Source of the DNA: Duganella sp. CF402
GTDB lineage: Bacteria > Pseudomonadota > Gammaproteobacteria > Burkholderiales > Burkholderiaceae_D
NCBI RefSeq assembly: GCF_900109645.1
Contig: NZ_FOBG01000002.1
Coordinates: 248,001-312,000 of the forward strand
DNA: 64,000 nucleotides
Direction: 5' to 3'
Shown here: piece after piece, positions 1,279 to 39,237 of the stretch
Numbering within the stretch: position 1 is the first letter of the stretch
Layout: the number at the start of each line of letters is the position of its first letter
Program-made: the position numbers and the translations under genes
The notes under the pieces: model-generated
Database searches by the model: none
What the model was told of the DNA's origin: nothing
What the model saw: the letters and a program-made list of their open reading frames with translations, nothing else

Positions 1279-3735
1279 ATGGACAGGCTTCCACAGCCAG
1301 CATACAGCCGCGCTCCCGAACGCCAGCGCAGCCAGCACGCGCGGGGACGGCGGCCCGGCCCGGACTTCGAACAGCAGTTCGGGCGCAGCCCGTATTTTGC
1401 CTTCACCATCGACGAGGCCGGCCACGTGCTGGCCTTCAACGAGCATGCTGCCAACCTGCTCGGCCCGCTATCACCGCAGCTCCCGGCCAGCGCCCTGTTT
1501 GCCGGCTGGGTGTTGCCGATGCTGCAAAACGAGGCCCTGCCGACGGCGCGCATGCGCGGCTACTGGCGCAGCGAGGTGGCGCTGGCCGGCCGCGACGGCC
1601 GGCAGCACCCGGTCAGCCAGACCATCGAATGGCGGCCGGCCGACCAGCCGCCCTGCTTCCTGTGCCTGGCCTATCCGCTTGACGATTACGACGTCTACGA
1701 ATCGCGCCTGCGCTTCAAGTACCTGTTCGAAGCCCATCCGCAGCCGATGTGGGTGTACGACCTGGAGACGCTGCGCTTCCTGGTGGTGAACGCCGCCGCC
1801 GTGGCCCAGTACGGCTACACCGAAGCCGAATTCCTGCAACTGACCATCCGCGACATTCGCCCGCCTGATCAATGGGAACGGCTGCAACGCAACCTGGCGG
1901 CAGCGCCGGCCAAAGGCGCCGAGCAGGCCGGCCTCTGGACCCACATCCGGCGCGACGGCAGCCGCCTGCAGGTGGAAATTTCATCGCATTCGGTCACGCT
2001 GTCCGGCCGCCCGGCACGGCTGGTGTTTGCCCATGACGTCACCGAGCGCCAGCAACTGAAACTGGCGCTGCAGCTGCGCAGCCAGGCGCTGGAAGCCAGC
2101 GTCAATGCCATCGTCATCACCTCGCACGCGTCCGAAGGCGACTTGATCGAGTACGCCAACCCGGCCTTTGCGCGCCTGTTCGGCCATGCGCCCGCCGCCC
2201 TGCCCGGCCAGCGGCTGGAGTCGCTGCTGGGCTTGCAGGCACAGGACGAGCAGCACCAGCCGCTGGCCGCCGCCCTGCAGGCGCAACAGGAAGCCACGCT
2301 GCTGCTGCGCACGCGCCACCGCGACGGCGCCCAGCTGTGGACCCAGCTGCACGTGGCGCCGGTGCACGCAGCCGAAGGTGACATCGGCCACCACGTGTGC
2401 GTGCTGACCGACATGACCGCCATCATGGACTACCAGGCCCAGCTTGAACACCAGGCCAACCACGACGCCCTCACCGGCCTGCCCAATCGCGCCCTGCTCA
2501 GCGACCGCATGGCGCAGGCGGTCACTTTCTCGCAGCGCTTCAAGCACAGCCTGTGGCTGGTGTTTATCGGCCTCGACAACTTCAAGCTCATCAACGACAA
2601 CCTCGGCCACCAGTTCGGCGACGAACTGCTGTGCGCGATCGCCGGCCGCCTGTGCGCCTGCGCCAGCGAAGGCGACACCGTGGCGCGGCTGGGCGGCGAT
2701 GAATTCGTACTGTTGCTGCCGGTCGCCAACCAGCGGCCGATGTCCAGCGTCTTGCAGCTGGTGCAGGAAGCGGTGGCGTCGCCGGTGACGCTCGGGCAGC
2801 AAGTGGTGACGGTGACCTGCAGCATCGGCGTCAGCATTTACCCGGCCGATGGCAGCGAGCCGGAACAGCTGCTCAAGCATGCCGACATCGCCCTGTACCG
2901 CGCCAAGGAAGCCGGCCGCAACCAGGTGCAATTTTACGAGGCGGCCATGCACGCGCGCATCGCCGAGCGCGCGCTGATCGAATCGGAATTGCGCCATGCG
3001 CTGGCGCGCGGGCAACTGAGCCTGGTCTATCAACCGAAGCTCGACCTGCACAGCGACACTGTGACCGGCATGGAAGCGCTGGTGCGCTGGCAGCATCCGA
3101 CGCTGGGCATGGTGCCGCCGATGCGCTTCATCGGCGTGGCCGAGGAAACCGGCCTGATCGTCCCCATTGGCCGCTGGGTGCTGCGCACCGCCTGCGCCCA
3201 GGCCAAGGCATGGCAGGACGCCGGCCTGCCGCCGCTGCGGGTGGCGGTCAACCTGTCGGCGCGCCAGTTCCGTGACCAGTCGCTGCTGGACGAAGTGCGC
3301 GCCGCGCTCGGGGATAGCGGACTGGACGCCCAGTACCTGGAACTCGAGCTGACCGAAAGCCTGATGATGCACAACGTCGACGAAGCGGTGGCGCTGGTGC
3401 ACAAGCTCAAGCAGCTCGGCATCGCGCTATCGATCGATGATTTCGGCACCGGCTATTCCAGCCTGGCCTACCTCAAGCAGTTCCCGGTCGACTATCTGAA
3501 GATCGACAAATCCTTCACGCGCGACATGCTGGATGAGCCCAAGGTGGCGGCCATCGTGCGCTCGGTGATCGCGCTGGGCCAGAGCCTGGGCTTCAAGATC
3601 ATCGCGGAAGGCGTGGAGACGGCGGACCAGCTGGCCTACCTGCGCCAGCACCAGTGCGACGAAATGCAGGGCTACTACTTCAGCCGTCCGCTCACGCCGG
3701 AAGCGTTTGCCGACAAGCTGCGCCACGCGTCCTAG
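1279..3735 (+). CDS. PAS-PAS-PAS-GGDEF-EAL cyclic-di-GMP signalling protein
   Basis: An 818-aa soluble protein without a membrane segment. Three PAS-like sensor regions occupy roughly residues 30-385. A GGDEF domain (about 395-555) carries an intact RLGGDEF motif, and an EAL domain (about 570-815) carries MEALVRW, NLSARQF and DDFGTGYSS. Both catalytic signatures are intact, so it could synthesise or degrade c-di-GMP. The allosteric I-site is absent: the position that would be RxxD reads SEGD. In such composite proteins the EAL activity often dominates, but that is inference here. The ATG follows an ACGAGG-type ribosome site. The PAS ligands are unknown. Confidence 0.93.
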   Translation: MDRLPQPAYSRAPERQRSQHARGRRPGPDFEQQFGRSPYFAFTIDEAGHVLAFNEHAANLLGPLSPQLPASALFAGWVLPMLQNEALPTARMRGYWRSEVALAGRDGRQHPVSQTIEWRPADQPPCFLCLAYPLDDYDVYESRLRFKYLFEAHPQPMWVYDLETLRFLVVNAAAVAQYGYTEAEFLQLTIRDIRPPDQWERLQRNLAAAPAKGAEQAGLWTHIRRDGSRLQVEISSHSVTLSGRPARLVFAHDVTERQQLKLALQLRSQALEASVNAIVITSHASEGDLIEYANPAFARLFGHAPAALPGQRLESLLGLQAQDEQHQPLAAALQAQQEATLLLRTRHRDGAQLWTQLHVAPVHAAEGDIGHHVCVLTDMTAIMDYQAQLEHQANHDALTGLPNRALLSDRMAQAVTFSQRFKHSLWLVFIGLDNFKLINDNLGHQFGDELLCAIAGRLCACASEGDTVARLGGDEFVLLLPVANQRPMSSVLQLVQEAVASPVTLGQQVVTVTCSIGVSIYPADGSEPEQLLKHADIALYRAKEAGRNQVQFYEAAMHARIAERALIESELRHALARGQLSLVYQPKLDLHSDTVTGMEALVRWQHPTLGMVPPMRFIGVAEETGLIVPIGRWVLRTACAQAKAWQDAGLPPLRVAVNLSARQFRDQSLLDEVRAALGDSGLDAQYLELELTESLMMHNVDEAVALVHKLKQLGIALSIDDFGTGYSSLAYLKQFPVDYLKIDKSFTRDMLDEPKVAAIVRSVIALGQSLGFKIIAEGVETADQLAYLRQHQCDEMQGYYFSRPLTPEAFADKLRHAS

Positions 3736-24279: not shown

Positions 24280-24381
24280 ATGCGCCAGAGTGATGACTGG
24301 TATCTGAAACAACAATTAGACACATATCTGGCGACGCAGCATAATTACACCTGTCTCCACTATTCTCCTCCAAGAAAATAG
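24280..24381 (+). CDS. Possible 33-aa small protein
   Basis: An ATG-initiated frame of 33 codons (begins MRQSDDWYLKQQLD, ends SPPRK) sits between the SDR stop and the intrinsic terminator, so it would be on the same transcript. No clear ribosome site is visible (GATAGTT precedes). The composition is unlike the neighbouring high-GC genes. It may be an untranslated tail. Confidence 0.25.
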   Translation: MRQSDDWYLKQQLDTYLATQHNYTCLHYSPPRK

Positions 24382-24385
24382 TTTT

Positions 24386-24416
24386 AAGCCCGCTCCAGTC
24401 AGCGGGCTTTTTTTTT
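24386..24416 (+). terminator. Rho-independent terminator after the SDR gene
   Basis: The stem AAGCCCGCT (24386-24394) pairs with AGCGGGCTT (24401-24409) around a 6-base loop, followed by a run of nine T in all. Confidence 0.93.
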
Positions 24417-28522: not shown

Positions 28523-29701
28523 ATGGAGCAAACGAAACACGACCTCTCGCCCGGCATGGTCTGGCTGTTCGCCATCGCGACCGGCCTGATCGTCGCCAAC
28601 CTGTACTATGCGCAAACGCTGATCGGACCGATCAGCAAAGCCACCGGCCTCGATCCCGGCGCGGCCGGGCTGATCGTCACGCTGACGCAGATCGGCTACG
28701 TGATCGGCCTGCTGTTCATCGTGCCGCTCGGCGACTTGCTGGAAAACCGCCGCCTGATCTTCATCGCCCTGCTGACCACGGCGCTGGCATTGCTGGCGGC
28801 CTCGGTGACCAGCAACGCCAACCTGTTCCTGTTTGCCGCGCTGTGCATCGGCCTGTGTTCGGTGGCGGCGCAGATCGTGGTGCCGTTCGCGGCCCACCTG
28901 TCGCAGCCTGAAACGCGCGGCAAGACCGTCGGCAAAGTGATGAGCGGCCTGCTGATGGGCATCATGCTGGCGCGTCCGGTGGCCAGCCTGGTGGCCGATA
29001 CGTTTGGCTGGCATGCGATCTTTGTGCTGTCCGCGATCGGCACGGCGGCGTTGGCGTTCGTGCTGCGCGCCAAGCTGCCGCTGCGCCAGCCGCAAGGCGG
29101 CATGCACTACTTCGAACTGCTGGCGTCGATGTGGCATCTGCTGAAGACCACGCCCATCCTGCGTCGCCGCGCGGCATATCAGGCCTGCATGTTCGGCGCC
29201 TTCAGCGTGTTCTGGACTTGCGTGTCGCTGGAACTGACCGGGCCGCATTTCGGCATCAGCCAGAGCGGCGTGGCGATCTTTGCGCTGGTGGGCGTGACGG
29301 GTGCGCTGGTGTCGCCGGTTGCCGGCCATCGCGCCGATCAGGGCAAGAGCCGCTCGACCACCTTTGCGGCGCTGACACTGGGTGCGCTGGCGTTTGCGCT
29401 GCCGCTGCTGATCCACAGCAACCAGCTGGTGAATCTCGGCCTGCTGGTGCTGGCCTCGATCATCCTCGACATGGGCGTCTCGGCCAATCTGGTGACGGGT
29501 CAACGCGCCATCTTCGCCTTGCCGGCGGAAGTACGCAGCCGCCTGAACGGCTTGTACATGGCGCTGTTCTTCATGGGCGGTGCGATCGGGTCATCGCTGG
29601 GCGGCTGGATGTTTGCGGCGCACGGCTGGACCGGCGTGCTGTGGACTGGCCTGGCATTCCCGCTGATCGCGCTCTGCATCTTCGCGACCGAAAAGCGTTA
29701 A
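28523..29701 (+). CDS. MFS transporter
   Basis: A 392-aa major-facilitator protein with about 12 helices (ATGLIVANLYYAQTLIGPIS, GLLFIVPLGDLLENRRLIF). The N-terminus resembles the YgaY/sugar-efflux-like MFS_1 group. It starts three bases after the luciferase-like gene and is probably co-transcribed with it. The stop overlaps that of the convergent secreted-protein gene by four bases. Substrate unknown. Confidence 0.92.
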   Translation: MEQTKHDLSPGMVWLFAIATGLIVANLYYAQTLIGPISKATGLDPGAAGLIVTLTQIGYVIGLLFIVPLGDLLENRRLIFIALLTTALALLAASVTSNANLFLFAALCIGLCSVAAQIVVPFAAHLSQPETRGKTVGKVMSGLLMGIMLARPVASLVADTFGWHAIFVLSAIGTAALAFVLRAKLPLRQPQGGMHYFELLASMWHLLKTTPILRRRAAYQACMFGAFSVFWTCVSLELTGPHFGISQSGVAIFALVGVTGALVSPVAGHRADQGKSRSTTFAALTLGALAFALPLLIHSNQLVNLGLLVLASIILDMGVSANLVTGQRAIFALPAEVRSRLNGLYMALFFMGGAIGSSLGGWMFAAHGWTGVLWTGLAFPLIALCIFATEKR

Positions 29702-30162
29702 TGCCCCCAGAAGCGGACCTGGCCTTGTAGCGATACCGTGCCGTTGATGTTCAGGCTGCCCAGGCTGTTGGTCACCGGTGCGGTGGGGTCGTTCTGCACG
29801 CTCAGCGATTCAAAGCCGAGGTTGGTGTAATGCACATAACCCGGCAGCCCGATGGCGATGTAGTCGCCGCCGCCATCGGTGCGCGTCTGCACGCCTAGGC
29901 TGACGGCAAACATGTCCACCGTCCCGCGCACATTCTTGAACACGATGTAGCGGTTCTGCCCGCCGCCACTGAAGCCCAGCGACAAGCGGCTGTCGCTCAC
30001 CGCGCCGACCAGCGTCGGATCATTCAGCACCACGTGCGCGGCAAAACTGATGCCGTCGCCGCCGCTGACCTGCGACAGCTCCTTGTCATCCAGCGGCTTC
30101 AGCTCGCCGGCCATGACCTGCGCGGCGCCCGCCATCAGCATCAAAAGGAGCGCGCGCTTCAT
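29698..30162 (-). CDS. Secreted DUF6160/FilA-like protein with double-glycine-like motif (Fil-like cluster, gene 5)
   Basis: A 154-aa exported protein. The signal peptide (about 1-18, ending in VMA) is followed at once by LKPLDDKELSQVSGGDGIS (residues 21-39). This is the cluster's shared motif and here carries a true Gly-Gly. The rest is beta-strand-like (SLGFSGGGQN, IAIGLPGYVHYTN) and ends in SLQGQVRFWGH. It is the last of five co-directional genes and overlaps the preceding one by four bases. I relate it to DUF6160/FilA proteins from memory. It is probably a minor component of a surface structure. Confidence 0.8.
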   Translation of the reverse strand: MKRALLLMLMAGAAQVMAGELKPLDDKELSQVSGGDGISFAAHVVLNDPTLVGAVSDSRLSLGFSGGGQNRYIVFKNVRGTVDMFAVSLGVQTRTDGGGDYIAIGLPGYVHYTNLGFESLSVQNDPTAPVTNSLGSLNINGTVSLQGQVRFWGH

Positions 30163-30986
30163 TGCTTGAACTTGATATCAAGGTACTGGATCTGCACCGA
30201 TCCAATGCGCGACGAGCCGAGATCGACCGTCGGCTGCCCCGGACTCACGAACGAAATATTGTCGACCACGATGCTGCCCGCCGGCGCCTGGCCGTTGCCA
30301 TAGCGCGCATCCGGCCAGTCGATGCCGATGTGCAGGCGCGGCCCGTTCTCGTCATTGAGCGCATTGATCACGCCCGGCTGCGCCGCCACATGGGCGATCT
30401 GCCACGGCGTGCCATCCACGCCGCCGATATGCACGCCGCTGAACACCATCGCCTCGGTCGCATCGTCGCGTCCGCGCGGCTGGAACGACAGCTGCGCAAT
30501 ATCCATCTTCAGCGCCGCGCCAAACGCGATGCCGTCATTGACTTGTGGCGTAGTGAACTGCAAGCCGCCGCCATAGAACACCAGGTCCTTGACCACCACA
30601 CTGCCCTGCTCGCGCACCACACCATCCGCACCCACGCCCCAGTCATAGGCCAGCTGCCAGCGCTGGTCGCCATTGGCGTTGGTCGGGAAAGCGATGTTGA
30701 TGTAGTCGGCCAGGCCTGGCGCGGAAGGCAAAATATCGAGCCGGAACGGATCGGAAAACGGCAGCGGATTATCGCTGCGCGAGGCATGGAATTTTTCCAC
30801 ATACAAGCTGCTGCCGACCGGCGTGGTGTAGCTCACACGCGCGTCGCCGCTCATGGCAAAGCCGTTCAGGTCGAAGCTGACGCCGTCGCGCCCGCGCACC
30901 GAGGACAGCGCGCTATCGCTCATCGGCTCCATCGCCGACGCGGCTGACGCGCACAACAGCAAGCCCACCGCCAGCGCGCGCTGCAT
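30159..30986 (-). CDS. Secreted DUF6160/FilA-like protein (Fil-like cluster, gene 4)
   Basis: A 275-aa exported protein. The signal peptide (MQRALAVGLLLCASAASA) is followed by EPMSDSALSSVRGRDGVS, the cluster motif with Arg-Gly-Arg-Asp-Gly in place of the double glycine. The remainder is predicted beta-rich and contains a lone RGRD sequence near residue 165. It overlaps the upstream gene by one base and the downstream gene by four, so translation is coupled. It is a larger relative of the 169-aa proteins. No enzymatic motif is seen. Confidence 0.78.
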   Translation of the reverse strand: MQRALAVGLLLCASAASAMEPMSDSALSSVRGRDGVSFDLNGFAMSGDARVSYTTPVGSSLYVEKFHASRSDNPLPFSDPFRLDILPSAPGLADYINIAFPTNANGDQRWQLAYDWGVGADGVVREQGSVVVKDLVFYGGGLQFTTPQVNDGIAFGAALKMDIAQLSFQPRGRDDATEAMVFSGVHIGGVDGTPWQIAHVAAQPGVINALNDENGPRLHIGIDWPDARYGNGQAPAGSIVVDNISFVSPGQPTVDLGSSRIGSVQIQYLDIKFKQ

Positions 30987-31777
30987 CAGCGGCCCTTCGG
31001 CAAGTTAGGCGGCGCCACGCCGCTGGTGGCCAGCGCCTGCAATTTATCGCGCCAGTTCAGCCACATGCCAGCTTGCGCCGTGTCGTTGGCCGGCTGGCCG
31101 CTGGCGGCCGGGAATTGCACCGACGTTTTCAATAGCGAAATCCAGAAATCGCGGCTGCCACCGCTGGCGTCGCCCGCCGTCACGCCGCCCAGTTGCGACA
31201 AGGTCAGGCACGGCGCGGTGCAGGCGCCGTCCCAGCGCTTGCCGCCGCCGGCATCGGTGCGCGAGTCAAGCACAATGGTGCTGCCGTCGGCCGCAGTGCC
31301 GGTCACTTTCATCGAGCCGGACAAGGTGGTGATCTGCAAACCGACATCGCCGCTGATCGACTCGAAGCCGAAGCGCATGCCGATCGCCTCACGCGAGGCA
31401 TTGTCCGCCGCGTTCTTGTAGACGAATTCAAAATAGGGATTACTGATCTGCACCACGCGCTGCGCGTCGGTGCCATCGCTGCGGCCGAACTGCAGCAGCG
31501 GAATATCAAGGTCGGCGCCACTGCCATTGCGGGCGGCGTAGGTGTACTCGCCCAGCCGCATATTGCGCAGGTTGGCGCTCAGGGTAATGTCCGCGTCGAG
31601 CGCGATCTTGCTGAAGTCAAAGCCATTCAGGCTGGTGTTGGTCATGGTGACCAGGCCTTGCCCGTTGACGGCCGACAGCTCGTCTTCGCTCAGTGGCTGC
31701 ATCTGTGCCGAGGCCGCGTGCATGCCGCATAGCAGTGCCGCGCCCAGCGCCAGCCGGCGCAGTAGTTTGGAGGTCAT
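30986..31777 (-). CDS. Secreted DUF6160/FilA-like protein (Fil-like cluster, gene 3)
   Basis: A 263-aa exported protein from the ATG at 31777; a GTG at 31804 would add nine residues before the signal peptide. The signal sequence (LALGAALLCGMHAASA) is followed by MQPLSEDELSAVNGQGLVTMT, the cluster motif (ELSxVxGQ-G). The rest is beta-rich. Two cysteines (DGACTAPCL) could form a disulfide. It sits 47 bp downstream of the 169-aa pair and overlaps the next gene by one base. Confidence 0.78.
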   Translation of the reverse strand: MTSKLLRRLALGAALLCGMHAASAQMQPLSEDELSAVNGQGLVTMTNTSLNGFDFSKIALDADITLSANLRNMRLGEYTYAARNGSGADLDIPLLQFGRSDGTDAQRVVQISNPYFEFVYKNAADNASREAIGMRFGFESISGDVGLQITTLSGSMKVTGTAADGSTIVLDSRTDAGGGKRWDGACTAPCLTLSQLGGVTAGDASGGSRDFWISLLKTSVQFPAASGQPANDTAQAGMWLNWRDKLQALATSGVAPPNLPKGR

Positions 31778-31824
31778 AAGATAGGGAGCGGCAACCGCCC
31801 ACACGGTTGCCGCCGCTCAGCTGA

Positions 31825-32334
31825 TTAGTGAGCGAAGATCCACACGGTGGTGCCGCGCATGTCGATCTGGTTCATGGCGACCGAGCCGAACGAAGCAGCG
31901 TTGTTGCCCATCTTGATCGAGTCAACCGACACGTTCAGGTAGTGGCCGTCAGCAACCACGGTCGAAGGGATCGCGATTTGCACCACGTCGCCGCCGGTGG
32001 CTGGGTTGTAGAAGGTGCCTGGGTTGGTCACGCCAGCAGCGCCGGCGGCGGCCAGGAACGAAGCCTTCGACAGGATGTCGATGTTAGCAGCGATCAGGCC
32101 GTTCACTTTGATGCCGTTGAACGATACCGAACCACCGCCCAGACCCGAAGCGTCCAGCGCGTCGGTGTCGGTGTAGGTGAAGGAATTGATTTTGATGTTC
32201 AGGTTGGCAGCGATCGACACGCCGTCCTGGCCGCTGACAGTGCTCAGTTCTGCATCTTGAATCGGGGTCATGGCCGATGCCGAGAAGGCCAGGGTTGCCA
32301 GGGCTGCAGCGACTGCGGTTTTGATGAATTGCAT
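31825..32334 (-). CDS. Secreted DUF6160/FilA-like protein, tandem copy A (Fil-like cluster, gene 2)
   Basis: A 169-aa exported protein almost identical to the next upstream gene: four amino-acid differences, at residues 3, 8, 50 and 53. The signal peptide (about 1-21, ending ASA) is followed by MTPIQDAELSTVSGQDGVS. Later segments are Gly/Ala/Asn/Ser-rich beta-type sequence (SGLGGGSVSFNGIKVNG). The C-terminus FGSVAMNQIDMRGTTVWIFAH matches the pattern at the end of the fusion protein at 38497. It may be a filament or matrix subunit; that is inference. Confidence 0.85.
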   Translation of the reverse strand: MQFIKTAVAAALATLAFSASAMTPIQDAELSTVSGQDGVSIAANLNIKINSFTYTDTDALDASGLGGGSVSFNGIKVNGLIAANIDILSKASFLAAAGAAGVTNPGTFYNPATGGDVVQIAIPSTVVADGHYLNVSVDSIKMGNNAASFGSVAMNQIDMRGTTVWIFAH

Positions 32335-32465: not shown

Positions 32466-32975
32466 TTAGTGCGCGAAGATCCACACGGTGGTGCCGCGCA
32501 TGTCGATCTGGTTCATGGCGACCGAACCGAACGAAGCTGCGTTGTTGCCCATCTTGATCGAGTCAACCGACACGTTCAGGTAGTGGCCGTCAGCAACCAC
32601 GGTCGATGGGATGGCGATCTGCACCACGTCGCCACCGGTGGCTGGGTTGTAGAAGGTGCCTGGGTTGGTCACGCCAGCAGCGCCGGCAGCGGCCAGGAAC
32701 GAAGCCTTCGACAGGATGTCGATGTTCGCTGCGATCAGGCCGTTCACTTTGATGCCGTTGAACGATACCGAACCGCCGCCCAGGCCCGATGCGTCCAGCG
32801 CGTCGGTGTCGGTGTAGACGAAGGAGTCAATCTTGATGTTCAGGTTGGCGGCGATCGACACGCCGTCCTGGCCGCTGACGGTGCTCAGCTCAGCGTCCTG
32901 AATCGGGGTCATGGCCGATGCCGAGAAGGCCAGGGTTGCCAGGGCTGCTGCGATTGCGGTTTTGATGGTTTGCAT
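32466..32975 (-). CDS. Secreted DUF6160/FilA-like protein, tandem copy B (Fil-like cluster, gene 1)
   Basis: A 169-aa exported protein, the promoter-proximal gene of the minus-strand set. The signal peptide (residues 1-21) is followed by ELSTVSGQDGVS at 29-40. Between it and copy A are 131 bp with a CAGGCC/GGCCTG inverted repeat that could protect or terminate the first transcript. Codons differ between the copies at roughly two dozen mostly silent sites, so the duplication is not brand new and the protein is being conserved. It is likely the most abundant product of the cluster. Confidence 0.87.
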   Translation of the reverse strand: MQTIKTAIAAALATLAFSASAMTPIQDAELSTVSGQDGVSIAANLNIKIDSFVYTDTDALDASGLGGGSVSFNGIKVNGLIAANIDILSKASFLAAAGAAGVTNPGTFYNPATGGDVVQIAIPSTVVADGHYLNVSVDSIKMGNNAASFGSVAMNQIDMRGTTVWIFAH

Positions 32976-34289: not shown

Positions 34290-34312
34290 TCCCCCTCTCA
34301 CAAGGAAGTCCC

Positions 34313-35317
34313 ATGATGTTACGCACCATATCCCTTGCCGTAGTCATCGCGTTTGCCGCCGCCCCGGCGCTGGCGCAACAAGCCAGCCAGCCTGCTACCG
34401 CCGACGCCGCGCGCGACGCACTCGCAAAAAAAGAAGGCGAAGGCGACCAGAGCGCCCTGCTCAAGCAAACCCTGACGGCAGTCGACAAGCAATACACCCT
34501 GATCCGCCGCAACCAGCTGTCGGTAACCTACGACTTCAGCTACAGCTACATCGGCGAAGACCGCATCGTCACCGACATCGGCAACGGCAGCGCCACCCTG
34601 TTCAACATCGAGAACAACAACTCGCACACGGTGACCAACACCTTCTCGGCCGACTACGGCGTGCGCGACAACCTGACCGCCAACGTCACCCTGCCATTGA
34701 TCTCGCGCTATGCCGACACCGCCGCCCGCAGCGGCATGTCGAACTCGATCGGCGACATCGGCATCGGCGCGCGCTGGCAGCCGTTCGAGGCCAAGCGCGA
34801 CCAGCCCGGCCTGACCGTCACCAGCAATGTGCGCCTGCCAACCGGCCGCAGCCCGTTCAAGATCATCGCCGGCAGCGGCGAAGCGACCGGCAGCGGCGTC
34901 GGCGCCGCCACGGTCGGCCTCAACGTCAACAAGATCGTCGACCCGGTTGCGCTGTTCGGCTCGGTGAACTTCACCGCCAGCCTGCCGGCCAAGAACCTGT
35001 GGCAAGTCAACGGCTCGCGCATCCTGACCCGTGTGGCGCCGGGACCGAGCGTGGGCTTCGGCCTCGGCTTCGCGTACGCGCTGTCGTACGGCATCTCGAC
35101 CACCATCTCCTTCCAGGAAGCGATTTCGGCCGGCACCAAGCTGCGCTTCGCCGACGGCCTGGAAGCCAAGACCCATATGCAGACCTCGGGCATTCTGAAC
35201 CTCGGCCTGGGCTACCGCATCTCGCCCAAGACCACGGTCAACTTCTCGGTCGGCATCGGCCTGACGCCGGACTCGCCTAACCTGATCGTTGGCATGAACC
35301 TGCCGTTGAGCTTCTGA
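34313..35317 (+). CDS. Outer-membrane beta-barrel protein (transporter-like, PF13557 type)
   Basis: A 334-aa exported protein. The signal peptide (ISLAVVIAFAAAPALA) is followed by a helical or coiled segment (ATADAARDALAKKEGEGDQSALLKQTL). Alternating amphipathic strands then follow to a C-terminal Phe (NLIVGMNLPLSF), typical of outer-membrane barrels. The closest fold I recognise is the 'meta-pathway phenol degradation'/transporter group. It starts 23 bases after the peptidase gene (AAGGAAG ribosome site) and overlaps the FadL-like gene by one base. It could be the exit pore of the cluster. Confidence 0.8.
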   Translation: MMLRTISLAVVIAFAAAPALAQQASQPATADAARDALAKKEGEGDQSALLKQTLTAVDKQYTLIRRNQLSVTYDFSYSYIGEDRIVTDIGNGSATLFNIENNNSHTVTNTFSADYGVRDNLTANVTLPLISRYADTAARSGMSNSIGDIGIGARWQPFEAKRDQPGLTVTSNVRLPTGRSPFKIIAGSGEATGSGVGAATVGLNVNKIVDPVALFGSVNFTASLPAKNLWQVNGSRILTRVAPGPSVGFGLGFAYALSYGISTTISFQEAISAGTKLRFADGLEAKTHMQTSGILNLGLGYRISPKTTVNFSVGIGLTPDSPNLIVGMNLPLSF

Positions 35318-36918
35318 TGAAACAGCTTGCCATTGCCGCCGCCGTTGCCGGCACGCTCAGCGTGTCCTTGCCGGCTTACGCCGCGCTGACCGAAAACCTC
35401 ACCACCAGCGTGGTTGCAATGGCGATGGGGAACGCGGTGACGGCCGACCCGCCGGGCATCGCCTCGATCCACTTCAACCCGGCCGGCCTGGCGCGGCTGG
35501 AGGGCGACAGCGAAAGCATCCACAACTTCGTGGCCTCGATCCGCACCAGCGCCCGCTTCACGCCGGGCGAAGGCTTCGACGTCGGCGGCTGGCGCGACGA
35601 CCCGCTGTCCAATACCTCCACCGGACCGGTCAAGCAGATCATGTACGTGCCCGGCTACGGCATGCCGGGCTGGCGCCTGCCGGCGGTGGCCGTGCCCGGT
35701 ATCGGCATGGCGTGGAACAAGCCCGGCTCGCCGTGGACCTTCGCCACCGACAGCTATATGTCGCAGGCCATGAGCCTGGACCGCACCACCGATCCCAACG
35801 ATCCGGGCCAGTACCAGGGCCGCCAGCAGCAGATCCAGCGCCTGGTGTATGCGGCGCCGTCGGTCGGCTACAAATATTCCGACACCCTGCGCTTCGGCGT
35901 CTCGGTGCCGATCGCGCACGCAGCCTTCGTGGTCGACACCAATATGCGCTTCCCGAATGAACTGCTGGGCGTGTTCGGCCAGCTGCAGAAAGGCTGGTGC
36001 CCGGAAAACGGCGGCAACATCATCGACGTGTTCGGCTTCGGCGTGTGCGGCGGCGGCAAGGACGGCATGGTCAGCCCGTTCAAGAAGGCCGCCAATATGC
36101 GGCTGGAACTGACCGCGCCGTTCGATCCCACCATCAACCTCGGCGTGCTGTGGGAGCCGTCGCCCAGGTTCGCGCTGGGCGTGGTGTACCAGGGCGGCTC
36201 CAAGACCCACTACACCGGCAGCTATGTGTTCAAGGCCGAGCCCATGCTGCGCAACTTCGTGCGCGGCATGAACGCCAGCCTGCTGGGACCGATCGCCGGC
36301 GCGGTGCTGGGCTTCCCGTCGTCCATTCCGGCCGAACAAAAGGGCAATATGAGCGCCAACATCCCCTTCCCTGCGCACGTGCAGGTGGGCGTCAAGCTCA
36401 AGCCCATCAAATACATCCAGCTCAATGTGGACGCCAGCTACGCGCGCTGGAGCGACTGGGACGCGCTGCGCTTCCAGTTCGACCAGAGCGTCAAGCTGCT
36501 GGAAGTGGCGCGCCTGTATGGCATCCCGGATTCGGGCAAGCTGATCATCCCGCGCGGCTACAAGAGCGTGGTCAACTTCGCCTACGGCCTGCAACTGAAT
36601 CCGCTCGACAAACTGTCGATCCGGCTCGGCTACGAGCCGCGCAAGACCTCGATCCCGGCCGACAAGATCGACCTGCTGGCGCCGCTGCCGGACACCAAGC
36701 TGCGCAGCGTGGGCATCGGCTACAAGATCAGCAAGAACATGGACATCAGCGTGACCGGGTCCTACATGACCGGCAAGTTCTACACGCCGGCCAACACCAG
36801 CTGCAATATGAACTGCAACACCTTCCTCAACATTATCTACAACCCGTACGCGGGACAAAATGTCGGCGGCGATATCCACGTCCGCTACTTCGGTTTCGAA
36901 TTGAACAAGCGTTTCTGA
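35317..36918 (+). CDS. FadL/TodX-family outer-membrane protein
   Basis: A 533-aa exported barrel. The signal peptide ends in LPAYA. NPAGLARLEG near residue 50 is the hallmark FadL/TodX block, followed by many beta strands and a C-terminal aromatic-strand end (RYFGFELNKRF). FadL proteins import hydrophobic compounds; here the gene is embedded between a C39 peptidase/barrel pair and a DUF2059 gene, so a role in the cluster's surface assembly is possible. It overlaps the preceding stop (TGATG). Confidence 0.87.
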   Translation: MKQLAIAAAVAGTLSVSLPAYAALTENLTTSVVAMAMGNAVTADPPGIASIHFNPAGLARLEGDSESIHNFVASIRTSARFTPGEGFDVGGWRDDPLSNTSTGPVKQIMYVPGYGMPGWRLPAVAVPGIGMAWNKPGSPWTFATDSYMSQAMSLDRTTDPNDPGQYQGRQQQIQRLVYAAPSVGYKYSDTLRFGVSVPIAHAAFVVDTNMRFPNELLGVFGQLQKGWCPENGGNIIDVFGFGVCGGGKDGMVSPFKKAANMRLELTAPFDPTINLGVLWEPSPRFALGVVYQGGSKTHYTGSYVFKAEPMLRNFVRGMNASLLGPIAGAVLGFPSSIPAEQKGNMSANIPFPAHVQVGVKLKPIKYIQLNVDASYARWSDWDALRFQFDQSVKLLEVARLYGIPDSGKLIIPRGYKSVVNFAYGLQLNPLDKLSIRLGYEPRKTSIPADKIDLLAPLPDTKLRSVGIGYKISKNMDISVTGSYMTGKFYTPANTSCNMNCNTFLNIIYNPYAGQNVGGDIHVRYFGFELNKRF

Positions 36919-36937: not shown

Positions 36938-37483
36938 ATGAAAAAAGCCAAACACGGTCTGATACTGCTGGCCCTGAGCGCGGCCTGCCTGAGCGTCCAC
37001 GCCGCTGCGCCGGTATCCCCGGCCAAGCAGGCGCTGGTCGACCAGGTCCTCAAACTGTGGAACATCGACAGCATCGGCCAGTCCATGCTGCAAGTGCCGG
37101 TGGCCGATGCAGTACAACAGGCGCGCGCCATGCTGCAGGGCCGCGCCGCGCCGGAGAAACGTGACGCCGCCATGACCGACATCGTCGGCGAAGCCAAGCA
37201 GTTCATGGCCGATGCCACACCGATCACGCGCGCCAGCGCCGACAAACTGATCCCTACCACCATCGCCCCCCTGCTGGCCGAGCGCTACACCGAGGAAGAA
37301 CTCAAGCAGCTGATCGCCATCCTGGAATCGCCGGTGAAGAAAAAATTTGAAGCCATGCTGCCGGAAATGCAGAAAACCCTGGGCGAAGGCGTGGCGGCCG
37401 ACACCCGTGCGGTGATCGATCCCAAGCTGCAGGGCCTGAAAGAAAAAATCGGCCTGCGCCTGCGCGCTGCGGTCACGCCATGA
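36938..37483 (+). CDS. DUF2059 periplasmic protein
   Basis: A 181-aa exported helical protein. The signal peptide (LILLALSAACLSVHAAA) is followed by a helical domain (KQALVDQVLKLWNID, ERYTEEELKQLIAILESPVKKKFEAM), the latter being the characteristic DUF2059 block. Function unknown in the family; it may be a periplasmic chaperone-like helper here. A GAAGGAG site precedes it, and its stop overlaps the start of the AraC gene (ATGA). Confidence 0.87.
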   Translation: MKKAKHGLILLALSAACLSVHAAAPVSPAKQALVDQVLKLWNIDSIGQSMLQVPVADAVQQARAMLQGRAAPEKRDAAMTDIVGEAKQFMADATPITRASADKLIPTTIAPLLAERYTEEELKQLIAILESPVKKKFEAMLPEMQKTLGEGVAADTRAVIDPKLQGLKEKIGLRLRAAVTP

Positions 37484-38484
37484 CGTACTCTTCCGCCCTG
37501 CATCTGGTGCGCGGCGTGAAATCGCGCCTGGCGCAATCCGGCGTGCAGGCAGAATCGCTGTTCGCGCAGGCCGGCCTGGACGAAGGCGACGGCCTCGCCT
37601 GCGACGCGCTCACGCTGTCGGACAAACTGAGCCACCTGTGGGAACTGCTGGTGGCGCAATCGGGCGACCCGCTGATCGGGCTGAAAATCTCGACTCCGCA
37701 CCGGCTCGGCTGGCTGGGCGTGATGGGCCACATCATGCTGGTGTCGCCGACCGTGCAAAGCTCGATCGAACGCTGCCACGGCAACACCCGCGTCGGCCTG
37801 CTGCTGCCGGGCGCCCAGCGCGCCGTGCCGCAGCAGCGCTACGACTTCGTCTGGTGCGTACTGCTGCGTTCCTTGCGCTGCGCGGCGGGCCGCGACGACA
37901 TCGCGCCGGTGGTGGTGGAATACAACTTTCCGGAGCCGGACTACGCCCACGTATTTGAAGAAACCTTCGGTTGCCCGGTGCGCTTCGGCATGCAGCACAA
38001 CGTGATGGAATTTTCCGACACCGACCTGGTCTCGGCGCTGCCGGCCGCGCCGCCGCTGGCCAATGGCGGCGGCGAGCACGTACTGGCCACGCTGGCGTCG
38101 GCGCAGCCGCCGACCTTCAGCGCCAAAGTGCAAGCGCTGCTGGCCAGCCTGCTGCCGAAAGGGCCGCCGCACCGCGACGACGTGGCGGCGCAAATGATGA
38201 TGAGCGAGCGCACCCTGCAGCGGCGGCTGGCCGAGGAAGGCACCAGCTTTACCAACCTGGTCGACGACACCCGGCGCGAGCTGGCGCGGCAATCGCTGAG
38301 CGCGGGCGAACTGTCGCTGAAAATGCTGAGTTTCCAGCTCGGCTTTTCCGAGCCGAGCGCGTTCTACCGCGCGTGCAAGCGCTGGTTCGGCATGGCGCCG
38401 TCCGACATCCAGCACCTGGCGCACCAGCCGGGGCCAGGGCCGGACGTGCTGCAGGCGCCGGTCAAGCCGCGCAAAACCGCATAA
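37480..38484 (+). CDS. AraC-family regulator with Arabinose_bd-type N-terminal domain (OruR-like)
   Basis: A 334-aa transcription factor. Residues 1-200 fit the PF12625 'arabinose-binding' effector domain seen in OruR/ArgR-like AraC proteins (LGWLGVMGHIMLVSPTVQSSIE). Residues 230-320 are the double helix-turn-helix (VAAQMMMSERTLQRRLAEEG, SFQLGFSEPSAFYRACKRW). It is translationally coupled to the DUF2059 gene and lies within the operon, so it most likely controls the cluster, perhaps through the AT-rich inverted repeat at 33089. Confidence 0.9.
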   Translation: MTYSSALHLVRGVKSRLAQSGVQAESLFAQAGLDEGDGLACDALTLSDKLSHLWELLVAQSGDPLIGLKISTPHRLGWLGVMGHIMLVSPTVQSSIERCHGNTRVGLLLPGAQRAVPQQRYDFVWCVLLRSLRCAAGRDDIAPVVVEYNFPEPDYAHVFEETFGCPVRFGMQHNVMEFSDTDLVSALPAAPPLANGGGEHVLATLASAQPPTFSAKVQALLASLLPKGPPHRDDVAAQMMMSERTLQRRLAEEGTSFTNLVDDTRRELARQSLSAGELSLKMLSFQLGFSEPSAFYRACKRWFGMAPSDIQHLAHQPGPGPDVLQAPVKPRKTA

Positions 38485-38496
38485 AAGGAGAACAAG

Positions 38497-39177
38497 ATGG
38501 GATGGCTATCGAGCAACCAAAATAAATCGATGCTGGGTCAGCTGCTGGTCAAACAGAAGCTGATTACCGAAGAACAGCTGGCCAGCGCGATTGAACTGCA
38601 ACGCAAGACCGGTCAGCGCCTGGGCGACATCTTTGCCGACCTGAACCTGATCACCCAGGAACACATCGAAAACGCCCTGCGCAAGCAGCGGCGTTTGCGG
38701 ATGGCGGCAGCGATCGCCACCTCGCTGCTGGCGCCGCTGGAAACCTACGCGGCATCAGCCTTGCCGGCAGCCGCACTGACCGCCAGCGCGCCCGTCAGCA
38801 CCCGCGCCCTGCGCGCCCTGAGCGACGAAGAACTGGGCGACACCGCCGCGCAGGGCCTGAGCGACGACCTGGTCAACGCCGTCAAACACGCCAAAGGCAA
38901 TAACCTGGAAGTCGTAGGTGAGATCAGCAAGCTGCTGAATCCGGTGCTAGGCTTCCTTGAAGCCGACACCACGATGAAAAACGTGGTCTACGACCCGAGC
39001 AAGGCGGCCGCCACCATCAACAAAGACGGCTCGCTGACCCTGAGCCTGCCGTCCTCGATCGGCGAAATCGCCTTCAACAACATCCGCGTGAAAGGCACCG
39101 AGGGCAGCAGCTTCGGCAGCATCTCCATCAAAGGCATCGACCTGACCGGCACCACCATCACCCTCGGTTTCCACTAA
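38497..39177 (+). CDS. GspE-N/MshEN-like domain fused to a FilA-like passenger
   Basis: A 226-aa protein with an unusual layout. Residues 10-65 (LGQLLVKQKLITEEQLASAI, LGDIFADLNLITQEHIENAL) read as a GspE-N/MshEN-type domain normally found on secretion or pilus ATPases and c-di-GMP-binding proteins. A hydrophobic stretch follows (MAAAIATSLLAPLETYA, 69-85), then LRALSDEELGDTAAQG (105-120), a variant of the cluster's motif. The C-terminus FGSISIKGIDLTGTTITLGFH lines up with the end of the 169-aa secreted proteins. No ATPase domain is present. It ends the operon, 12 bp after the AraC gene. Confidence 0.82.
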   Translation: MGWLSSNQNKSMLGQLLVKQKLITEEQLASAIELQRKTGQRLGDIFADLNLITQEHIENALRKQRRLRMAAAIATSLLAPLETYAASALPAAALTASAPVSTRALRALSDEELGDTAAQGLSDDLVNAVKHAKGNNLEVVGEISKLLNPVLGFLEADTTMKNVVYDPSKAAATINKDGSLTLSLPSSIGEIAFNNIRVKGTEGSSFGSISIKGIDLTGTTITLGFH

Positions 39178-39179
39178 AG

Positions 39180-39237
39180 TTCGGGGTCAGAGCCGACAAT
39201 CGGACACGCATGTCCGATTGTCGGCTCTGACCCCGAA
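39180..39237. repeat. Perfect 27-bp inverted repeat with 4-base loop
   Basis: The left arm 39180-39206 (TTCGGGGTCAGAGCCGACAA then TCGGACA) is the exact reverse complement of the right arm 39211-39237, around the loop CGCA. It sits between convergent genes and may terminate both transcripts by structure alone. The GGGGTCAGAGCC core resembles REP-type elements mobilised by RAYT transposases in related genomes, which is recollection, not proof. Confidence 0.9.

Follow-up and report, generated by a model that had tools for sequence, protein, structure and literature searches.

Why should a protein that bears the marks of an exported pilus subunit begin with a unit that resembles the c-di-GMP receptor of secretion ATPases? 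The question is raised by one short gene in a 64,000-nucleotide stretch of Duganella sp. CF402 DNA (the whole stretch analysed, here called the window). The usual targets of c-di-GMP are transcription, enzymes, secretion ATPases and the LapD route; in this protein, and in counterparts from several bacterial families, the receptor unit sits on the predicted exported subunit itself, before the signal peptide. A sequence-only reading had suggested that joining a cytoplasmic c-di-GMP-type domain to an exported passenger could tether secretion to a signal, and the evidence gathered here fits that suggestion, the link to a signal being something that we infer. The fusion is a new combination of known parts. 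Among the open-access papers listed, supplements such as the MshEN-fusion tables of Wang 2016 aside, none describes an MshEN–signal peptide–FilA-like protein.

An intact gene at the end of a fil operon

The fusion gene (Table 1) is one intact open reading frame of 226 amino acids, with the coordinates and frame that the sequence-only reading had assigned to it, and its ATG lies 12 nucleotides past the stop of an AraC-family gene. The nearest named relative of its product is from Duganella rivi (96% identity; lineage Oxalobacteraceae). A frame error joining two genes is excluded by 36 proteins from relatives that align with the window protein over its full length, and by purifying selection on each named part: across ten close orthologues, pN/pS is 0.16 in the MshEN part, 0.09 in the signal peptide (the most constrained block), 0.16 in the leader and 0.22 in passenger residues 141-222, whereas it rises to 0.53 in the variable stretches 86-107 and 122-140. 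A related alternative holds that the N-terminal part is not translated together with the passenger, either through such a join or because the true start is an internal methionine, Met69. That residue does exist in the window sequence, just before the hydrophobic segment, but it is present in only 39 of the 64 sequences (58 of them distinct) in our alignment of fusion proteins, AAGGAG precedes Met1 and none was seen before Met69, the MshEN part is itself under constraint, and the same layout is found in more than one family. Conservation refutes both versions of this alternative, which we regard as exceedingly improbable. A promoter and terminator scan returned nothing usable.

Table 1. Features of the fusion gene and of the surrounding fil cluster, in window coordinates
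Feature	Coordinates	Strand	Basis
FilA-like protein, 154 aa, leader VSGG/DG	29698..30162	-	DUF6160 26.8 bits, just under cut-off 27
FilA-like protein, 275 aa, leader VRGR/DG	30159..30986	-	DUF6160 37.1 bits
FilA-like protein, 272 aa, leader VNGQ/GL	30986..31804	-	DUF6160 26.0 bits, just under cut-off 27
FilA-like subunit, 169 aa, near copy of the next	31825..32334	-	DUF6160 73.4 bits
FilA-like subunit, 169 aa, leader VSGQ/DGVS	32466..32975	-	DUF6160 74.3 bits; FilA 44.4 bits, cut-off 220
FilB/FapD-like C39 peptidase, N-terminal hydrophobic segment	33519..34289	+	Pfam Peptidase_C39 70.7 bits; NF050078 (FilB) 222.7 bits, cut-off 475; FapD 130 bits, also below cut-off
FilC/FapF-like outer-membrane transporter	34310..35317	+	NF050079 260.6 bits, cut-off 630; FapF 72.7 bits, below cut-off
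FilD-like, OmpP1/FadL family	35317..36918	+	NF050080 413.2 bits, cut-off 970; Pfam Toluene_X 130.3 bits
DUF2059-like protein, same conserved gene row	36938..37483	+	Pfam 22.1 bits, just under cut-off 23.6; synteny
AraC-family regulator, between DUF2059 gene and fusion gene	37480..38484	+	family read by eye; synteny
Shine-Dalgarno AAGGAG, 6 nt 5' of fusion-gene ATG	38485..38490	+	sequence
Fusion gene, 226 aa: MshEN_N, Sec signal peptide, C39-type leader, FilA-like passenger	38497..39177	+	
MshEN_N unit, residues 12-64 (53 residues): two 24-residue motifs and 5-residue linker	38530..38688	+	
Signal-peptide-like segment, residues 65-85 (RRLR / MAAAIATSLLAPL / ETYA), predicted cut after A85	38689..38751	+	
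Variable linker, residues 86-107, length varies	38752..38817	+	pN/pS 0.53
C39-type leader LSDEELGDTAAQ, residues 108-119, predicted cut Q119/G120	38818..38853	+	
FilA-like passenger, residues 120-226, beta-rich after about residue 153	38854..39174	+	

The gene is the last of an operon that also encodes FilB-, FilC- and FilD-like proteins, and this operon faces five FilA-like genes, whose products are each predicted to have a Sec peptide and then a C39-type leader. The FilB, FilC and FilD homologues are found together in the cluster, in conserved order. As in the Acinetobacter Fil pilus system, in which FilA is the pilus subunit of strain Tol 5 (available text of PMC11784438), FilA-, FilB-, FilC- and FilD-like proteins share one cluster here, but all four models, in an NCBIfam scan of eight proteins, score below their curated cut-offs, so these names mean homologue and not confirmed member. 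A profile of the 169-aa FilA-like proteins matches pilus chain 9xfv_A at E = 8.9e-31; in this alignment the chain begins opposite the aspartate that directly follows VSGQ. Judged by sequence, the passenger of the fusion belongs to this Fil-type pilus cluster, which the sequence-only reading had left unnamed. PDB entry 9xfv, 'bacteria pilus (like)', known here from the entry alone, is a homologue of the 169-aa proteins and has a C-terminal motif in common with the passenger, whereas its chain carries no MshEN domain.

The Fap functional amyloid system has a C39 protease and a FapF-like pore in common with the cluster, both matches being below cut-off. According to the available text of PMC5557850, which mentions no c-di-GMP domain for Fap, its C39 protease FapD is periplasmic, is needed for secretion and has an unclear target, for which FapE, the sole Fap protein with full N-terminal processing, is the processed candidate. 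The substrates encoded here differ from those of Fap in their predicted Sec peptide and GG-type leader.

The order C39-FilC-FilD-DUF2059-AraC-fusion is found in 30 of the 36 fetched fusion loci of relatives and in 42 of 53 named loci, two sets that overlap; some of the other 11 named loci are short contigs. All told, 40 loci were fetched: 30 with the main gene order, six with fusion copies elsewhere and four with passenger-only paralogues. Matches to the N-domain region that look by eye like secretion or pilus ATPases (L134-L139), together with one whose frame is not readable as a gene (L133), were dropped before the 53 were counted. Massilia norwichensis (L131) has the AraC gene inverted and on the other side, with the fusion gene still directly behind DUF2059. 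Five of the copies outside the fil cluster (L036, L048, L049, L050 and L051) lie, by eye, downstream of ATP synthase beta and epsilon genes; motif I of their MshEN unit keeps Arg and the turn Gly and has Phe for the first Leu. The sixth is in G119, from another family of the same order, where the fusion and the fil genes are on different contigs.

A c-di-GMP-type unit without its ATPase

The N terminus had been likened to the corresponding domain of secretion ATPases, and the resemblance is far beyond chance. NCBIfam model NF053729 (c-di-GMP_motif, titled 'cyclic di-GMP-binding domain-containing protein, MshE-related') matches the fusion protein with 62.8 bits (E = 1.9e-17; curated cut-off 38), and a phmmer search of the PDB with residues 1-70 finds PilF (6.1e-13) and MshE 5htl (3.2e-07). 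The unit is laid out as residues 12-35, a linker at 36-40 and residues 41-64, and its length is identical in 64 of 64 sequences; the c-di-GMP unit of Wang 2016 (available text of PMC5013675) likewise comprises two 24-residue motifs and a 5-residue linker, 53 residues in total. No ATPase follows, as the earlier reading had observed; MshEN_C is absent too, and the frame stops at 226 residues. Pfam and NCBIfam gave no ATPase-domain match in the fusion protein, and the PilB model covers residues 13-65 only. A whole MshEN or an ATPase remnant was considered and rejected; the N-terminal subdomain alone is present.

The proposed structural match to MshEN is also borne out. An AlphaFold model of the full-length protein, of low confidence overall (mean pLDDT 51) and about 50-60 in this region, was used for a fold search of the N-domain only. 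Foldseek ranked MshE with c-di-GMP first (5htl_B; probability 1.00, rmsd 0.9 A over 52 columns, E 0.052) and PilF GSPII-B with c-di-GMP next, with no N-domain match at E <= 0.001; the fold found in this low-confidence model is the four-helix one of MshEN_N.

The 12 key c-di-GMP contact residues are R, L, G, L, L and Q in each motif. The window protein keeps nine of them and deviates at M12 (for R of motif I) and at I32 and I57 (for L). Each of G14, L28, Q35, L42, G43 and Q64 is invariant in all 64 sequences, and these include both Gly and both Gln, which are polar or backbone contact residues. Invariant columns account for 6 of the 12 key sites and 6 of the 41 others (Fisher p = 0.018, a modest enrichment in a set of related sequences). 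Only 8 of the 64 sequences retain R at the Arg position of motif I and one has K, so that 55 have lost it; of the turn glycines, the first is missing from 54 and the second from every sequence. Arg is absent from both motifs in three sequences, which speaks either against a strict requirement for Arg or against binding in those three.

Published measurements indicate which of these changes matter. The available text of Wang 2016 (PMC5013675) gives a KD of 0.35 uM for c-di-GMP binding by isolated MshEN_N, with binding abolished by mutation of Gly11 and reduced at most fivefold by changes at Arg9, Asp12 or Gln32; replacing Leu by Ile in engineered PilF constructs has a cost of about 2.4-fold (available text of PMC12002112). 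Because the glycines and glutamines are kept, and because changes at Arg9 and from Leu to Ile cost little whereas a change at Gly11 abolishes binding, the N-domain of the fusion protein is likely to bind c-di-GMP, perhaps more weakly.

The fold could instead have lost c-di-GMP and now serve to dock or target the protein, for example to a component of type II secretion, of the type IV pilus or of Fil. The widespread loss of the motif I Arg, and of both Args in three sequences, would suit such a role, for which there are precedents: XpsE and PilF GSPII-A are known non-binders of the MshEN fold, as far as the available texts go, and the PilB N-terminal domain has been solved with PilZ (7lko, going by the PDB title). 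However, both Gly and Gln61 are among the residues lost in XpsE (available text of PMC5013675), and of the eight XpsE changes associated with the loss of binding, the fusion protein shows none in non-conservative form; here both Gly and both Gln are invariant. In a distant family of our sample, f57 (probably Moraxellaceae, to judge from 33 genomes with FilC above the curated cut-off), all 12 key residues are present in five of nine copies, the sole change in three more is K for the second R, and the copy L154 deviates at two. We therefore doubt that the unit has become a mere dock, and keep c-di-GMP binding as the preferred reading.

With the MshEN domains of V. cholerae MshE, PilF (GSPII-B) and E. 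coli NfrB, the unit has in common the 53-residue double motif, its geometry, the fold, and both Gly and Gln; it differs from them in lacking MshEN_C and an ATPase, in being followed directly by a signal peptide, and in the replacement of the motif I Arg in most home-lineage fusion sequences. EpsG/NfrB-type fusions likewise place an MshEN unit on a non-ATPase protein, but their partners, as described in the portions of the sources available, are cytoplasmic or membrane enzymes and not an exported subunit. An EpsG-like tyrosine kinase with an MshEN unit near its N terminus is encoded in the same genome (L004, 847-1734).

Two c-di-GMP genes unlinked to the fusion had been noted elsewhere in the window. 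One of them stands: an 818-aa frame at 1279-3735, about 35 kb away, has both GGDEF- and EAL-type motif strings. The second was not found by our narrow script, which searches ORFs of at least 150 aa for such strings and would miss other c-di-GMP domains. By the same script no cyclase was seen beside the fusion gene, and no c-di-GMP riboswitch in the window reached its gathering score.

Signal peptide, leader and passenger

The hydrophobic segment described earlier is present (residues 69-81), and is better understood as the core of a signal-peptide-like stretch, probably not an anchor. All 64 sequences have R68, P80 and A85, the latter two at -6 and -1 relative to the predicted cut, and all have T, A, S, G or V at -3. 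Q64, the last ligand-contact residue, and A85 are 21 residues apart in 64 of 64, with no indel between them, and the f57 copies have R at +4 and P at +16 past the last Gln in nine of nine, as in the home family. In the window protein, the hydrophobic core spans 13 residues and the best 19-residue hydropathy is 1.2. With A at -1 and P at -6 throughout, a short core and low hydropathy, the segment looks like a cleavable signal peptide sooner than an anchor, and a permanent tether is not our first choice.

An alternative is that the segment escapes cleavage and serves as an N-in anchor. Events in the cytosol, either c-di-GMP binding or dimerisation of MshEN, could then alter the periplasmic FilA-like domain, which would hold or release FilB or fibre subunits in a manner comparable to the action of LapD on LapG. 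Placing a cytosolic receptor ahead of a membrane segment makes sense for a sensor, 18 of the 64 sequences have a 19-residue hydropathy of at least 1.6, and the full-length model predicts, at low confidence, a single helix from 54 to 88. Nevertheless, A85, P80 and the small residue at -3 resemble a signal-peptidase site in all 64 sequences, the core and hydropathy of the window protein are low for such an anchor, and a C39-type leader comes next, as in the FilA-like subunits. An inside-out switch of this kind thus seems unlikely to us, and cleavage remains the preferred reading.

The variant of the cluster's leader motif that had been reported in the fusion protein is indeed there, at residues 108-120. 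Q119 is kept in 64 of 64 sequences and G120 in 63, with A for G at -2 in 58. This leader is in register with those of the cluster's exported proteins (ELSTVSGQ/DG, DELSAVNGQ/GL, KELSQVSGG/DG and ALSSVRGR/DG), and its predicted cut falls in the same register as the start of 9xfv_A in the 169-aa proteins. We take the leaders of the fusion and of the FilA-like proteins to resemble double-glycine leaders (LSxxELxxIxGG). Two cleavages are predicted, one after A85 by signal peptidase I and one after Q119 by FilB, and we consider each of them quite probable.

The claimed likeness of the C terminus to the 169-aa exported proteins holds in a profile comparison (hhalign probability 91.8, E 7.3e-07, 45 columns). 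This region also resembles FilA 227-276 (E 0.033), and the passenger profile finds 9xfv_A (E 0.0068) via the FGSxxIxxIDLxG segment. Both curated models score the passenger below cut-off, DUF6160 with 18.7 bits (cut-off 27) and FilA with 13.6 bits (cut-off 220). The succession of signal peptide, GG-type leader and C-terminal FGSxxIxxIDLxGT is complete in the fusion, these features being read from the sequences and not from a curated definition. Block by block, the passenger model has a pLDDT of 77-92 once past the first 30 passenger residues. Foldseek gave no match to a known fold at E <= 0.001, and the best VIA-align result, Z 3.6 to 9xfv_A (rmsd 4.5, 73 aligned), is barely above unrelated rows; as the fold comparison is weak, it is the sequence match that carries the link to 9xfv.

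Might the exported domain be a decoy or regulator, and not part of a fibre, that occupies FilB or FilC and slows assembly at low c-di-GMP? Its gene is a single one at the tail of the operon, beside an AraC-family regulator, and the A at -2 of the leader could be taken in the same sense; but the leader and the C-terminal motif are common to the FilA-like proteins, and to pilus 9xfv, which points to co-assembly. We find the decoy role improbable and favour a fibre subunit.

Seven relatives carry an additional gene whose match is confined to the passenger part; the three that were checked at full length are all without the MshEN part. The passenger-only paralogues L071, L072 and L074 (175, 172 and 162 aa) combine a signal peptide with a leader-like motif, which in two of them reads LNDAELRGVS, and have no MshEN domain.

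Distribution and proposed mechanism

The fusion gene is linked to fil genes well beyond the window. Across 297 sampled genomes (148 relatives and 149 of f57), all 55 with the fusion also have FilC. The full fusion occurs in 46 of the relatives, all with FilC, out of 48 that have FilC at all; among these 46 is G056, whose genome is 60% complete and matches FilC only partially, and whose fusion is a stray copy outside the cluster. As for the two relatives with FilC and no fusion, G037 has a complete fil cluster minus this gene, and the G040 contig ends within AraC. Matches to the N-domain only, in open frames of 568-589 aa (G034, G070, G090, G095, G135 and G143), were not counted as fusions.

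In f57 (G154 and relatives), 9 of 149 genomes have the fusion and 59 have FilC; all nine also have FilB, and 50 of the 59 FilC-bearing genomes are without the fusion. The complete cluster of G037 and these 50 genomes indicate that the fusion gene is dispensable. Fusion and filBC lie on different contigs in all nine draft genomes, and no fil gene is found within 19.5 kb around the G154 copy, so the link is not one of simple neighbourhood. One of the nine copies (L154, in G540) has a divergent passenger. In a departure from the Acinetobacter Fil system, the genera in which FilC scores above the curated cut-off, g353 and g347, include none of the nine f57 fusion genomes. Of the 70 genera sampled among the relatives, only 2 were found to have the fusion, and the architecture is patchy on a wider scale as well: when the class was sampled evenly, 2 of 369 genomes, G154 and that of the window itself, gave a passenger match.

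Our main reading, to which we give about an even chance, is that the fusion protein is a minor (initiating, capping or regulatory) Fil-type subunit and that a c-di-GMP receptor in cis controls its export. On this view the bundle formed by MshEN_N (12-64) would remain in the cytosol and read c-di-GMP, and the last helix of this sensor would continue unbroken into the signal peptide (65-85), such that the ligand state sets how the peptide is presented to Sec. The proposed coupling of sensor to Sec is supported by the fixed Q64-A85 spacing and by the finding that an engineered isolated PilF domain folds on ligand binding (available text of PMC12002112). After export, signal peptidase I would cut after A85, the periplasmic C39 protease FilB would then cut after Q119, and the FilA-like domain (120-226) would join a fibre secreted via FilC, of which the fusion may be the initiator, matching the role of FapE in Fap. 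If signal peptidase does cut, the sensor acts only before or during export. Because AlphaFold confidence is low, the unbroken helix is weak evidence. Several further observations count against the main reading: the loss of the motif I Arg in most sequences, the window protein included; the modest enrichment of invariant columns at key sites; Foldseek matches that stay above E 0.001; the lack of a c-di-GMP riboswitch at its gathering score and of a cyclase seen next to the gene; the dispensability and patchy occurrence of the fusion, with the divergent passenger of L154 and the stray copy in G056; and the passenger scores below the FilA and DUF6160 cut-offs.

Gating itself, and its direction, we judge to be evenly poised, with a lean towards c-di-GMP licensing export because c-di-GMP usually favours attachment. 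An allosteric signal peptide, by which a receptor fused in cis decides, protein by protein, on the export of a pilus subunit, is a tentative idea that we would on balance not expect to hold. If true, it would place c-di-GMP control of secretion on the substrate, and not on transcription, an ATPase or a periplasmic protease. If c-di-GMP is bound, the fusion represents a new way of coupling this messenger to the assembly of surface fibres, and the architecture suggests that fibre building may be tied directly to the cell's attach-or-swim signal.

Two further elements were seen in the window. At 39183-39234, just past the fusion stop, lies a perfect inverted repeat with 24-base arms, GGGGTCAGAGCCGACAATCGGACA, and a 4-base loop. 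The sequence GGGGTCAGAGCC forms nine inverted pairs in the genome, one of them about 950 bases apart (C2:883409/884362); these pairs are perhaps a REPIN-like family, and the wide pair may hold a putative transposase gene. At 24352-24415, a Betaproteobacteria toxic small RNA (RF02278) scores 55.6 bits against a gathering score of 50.
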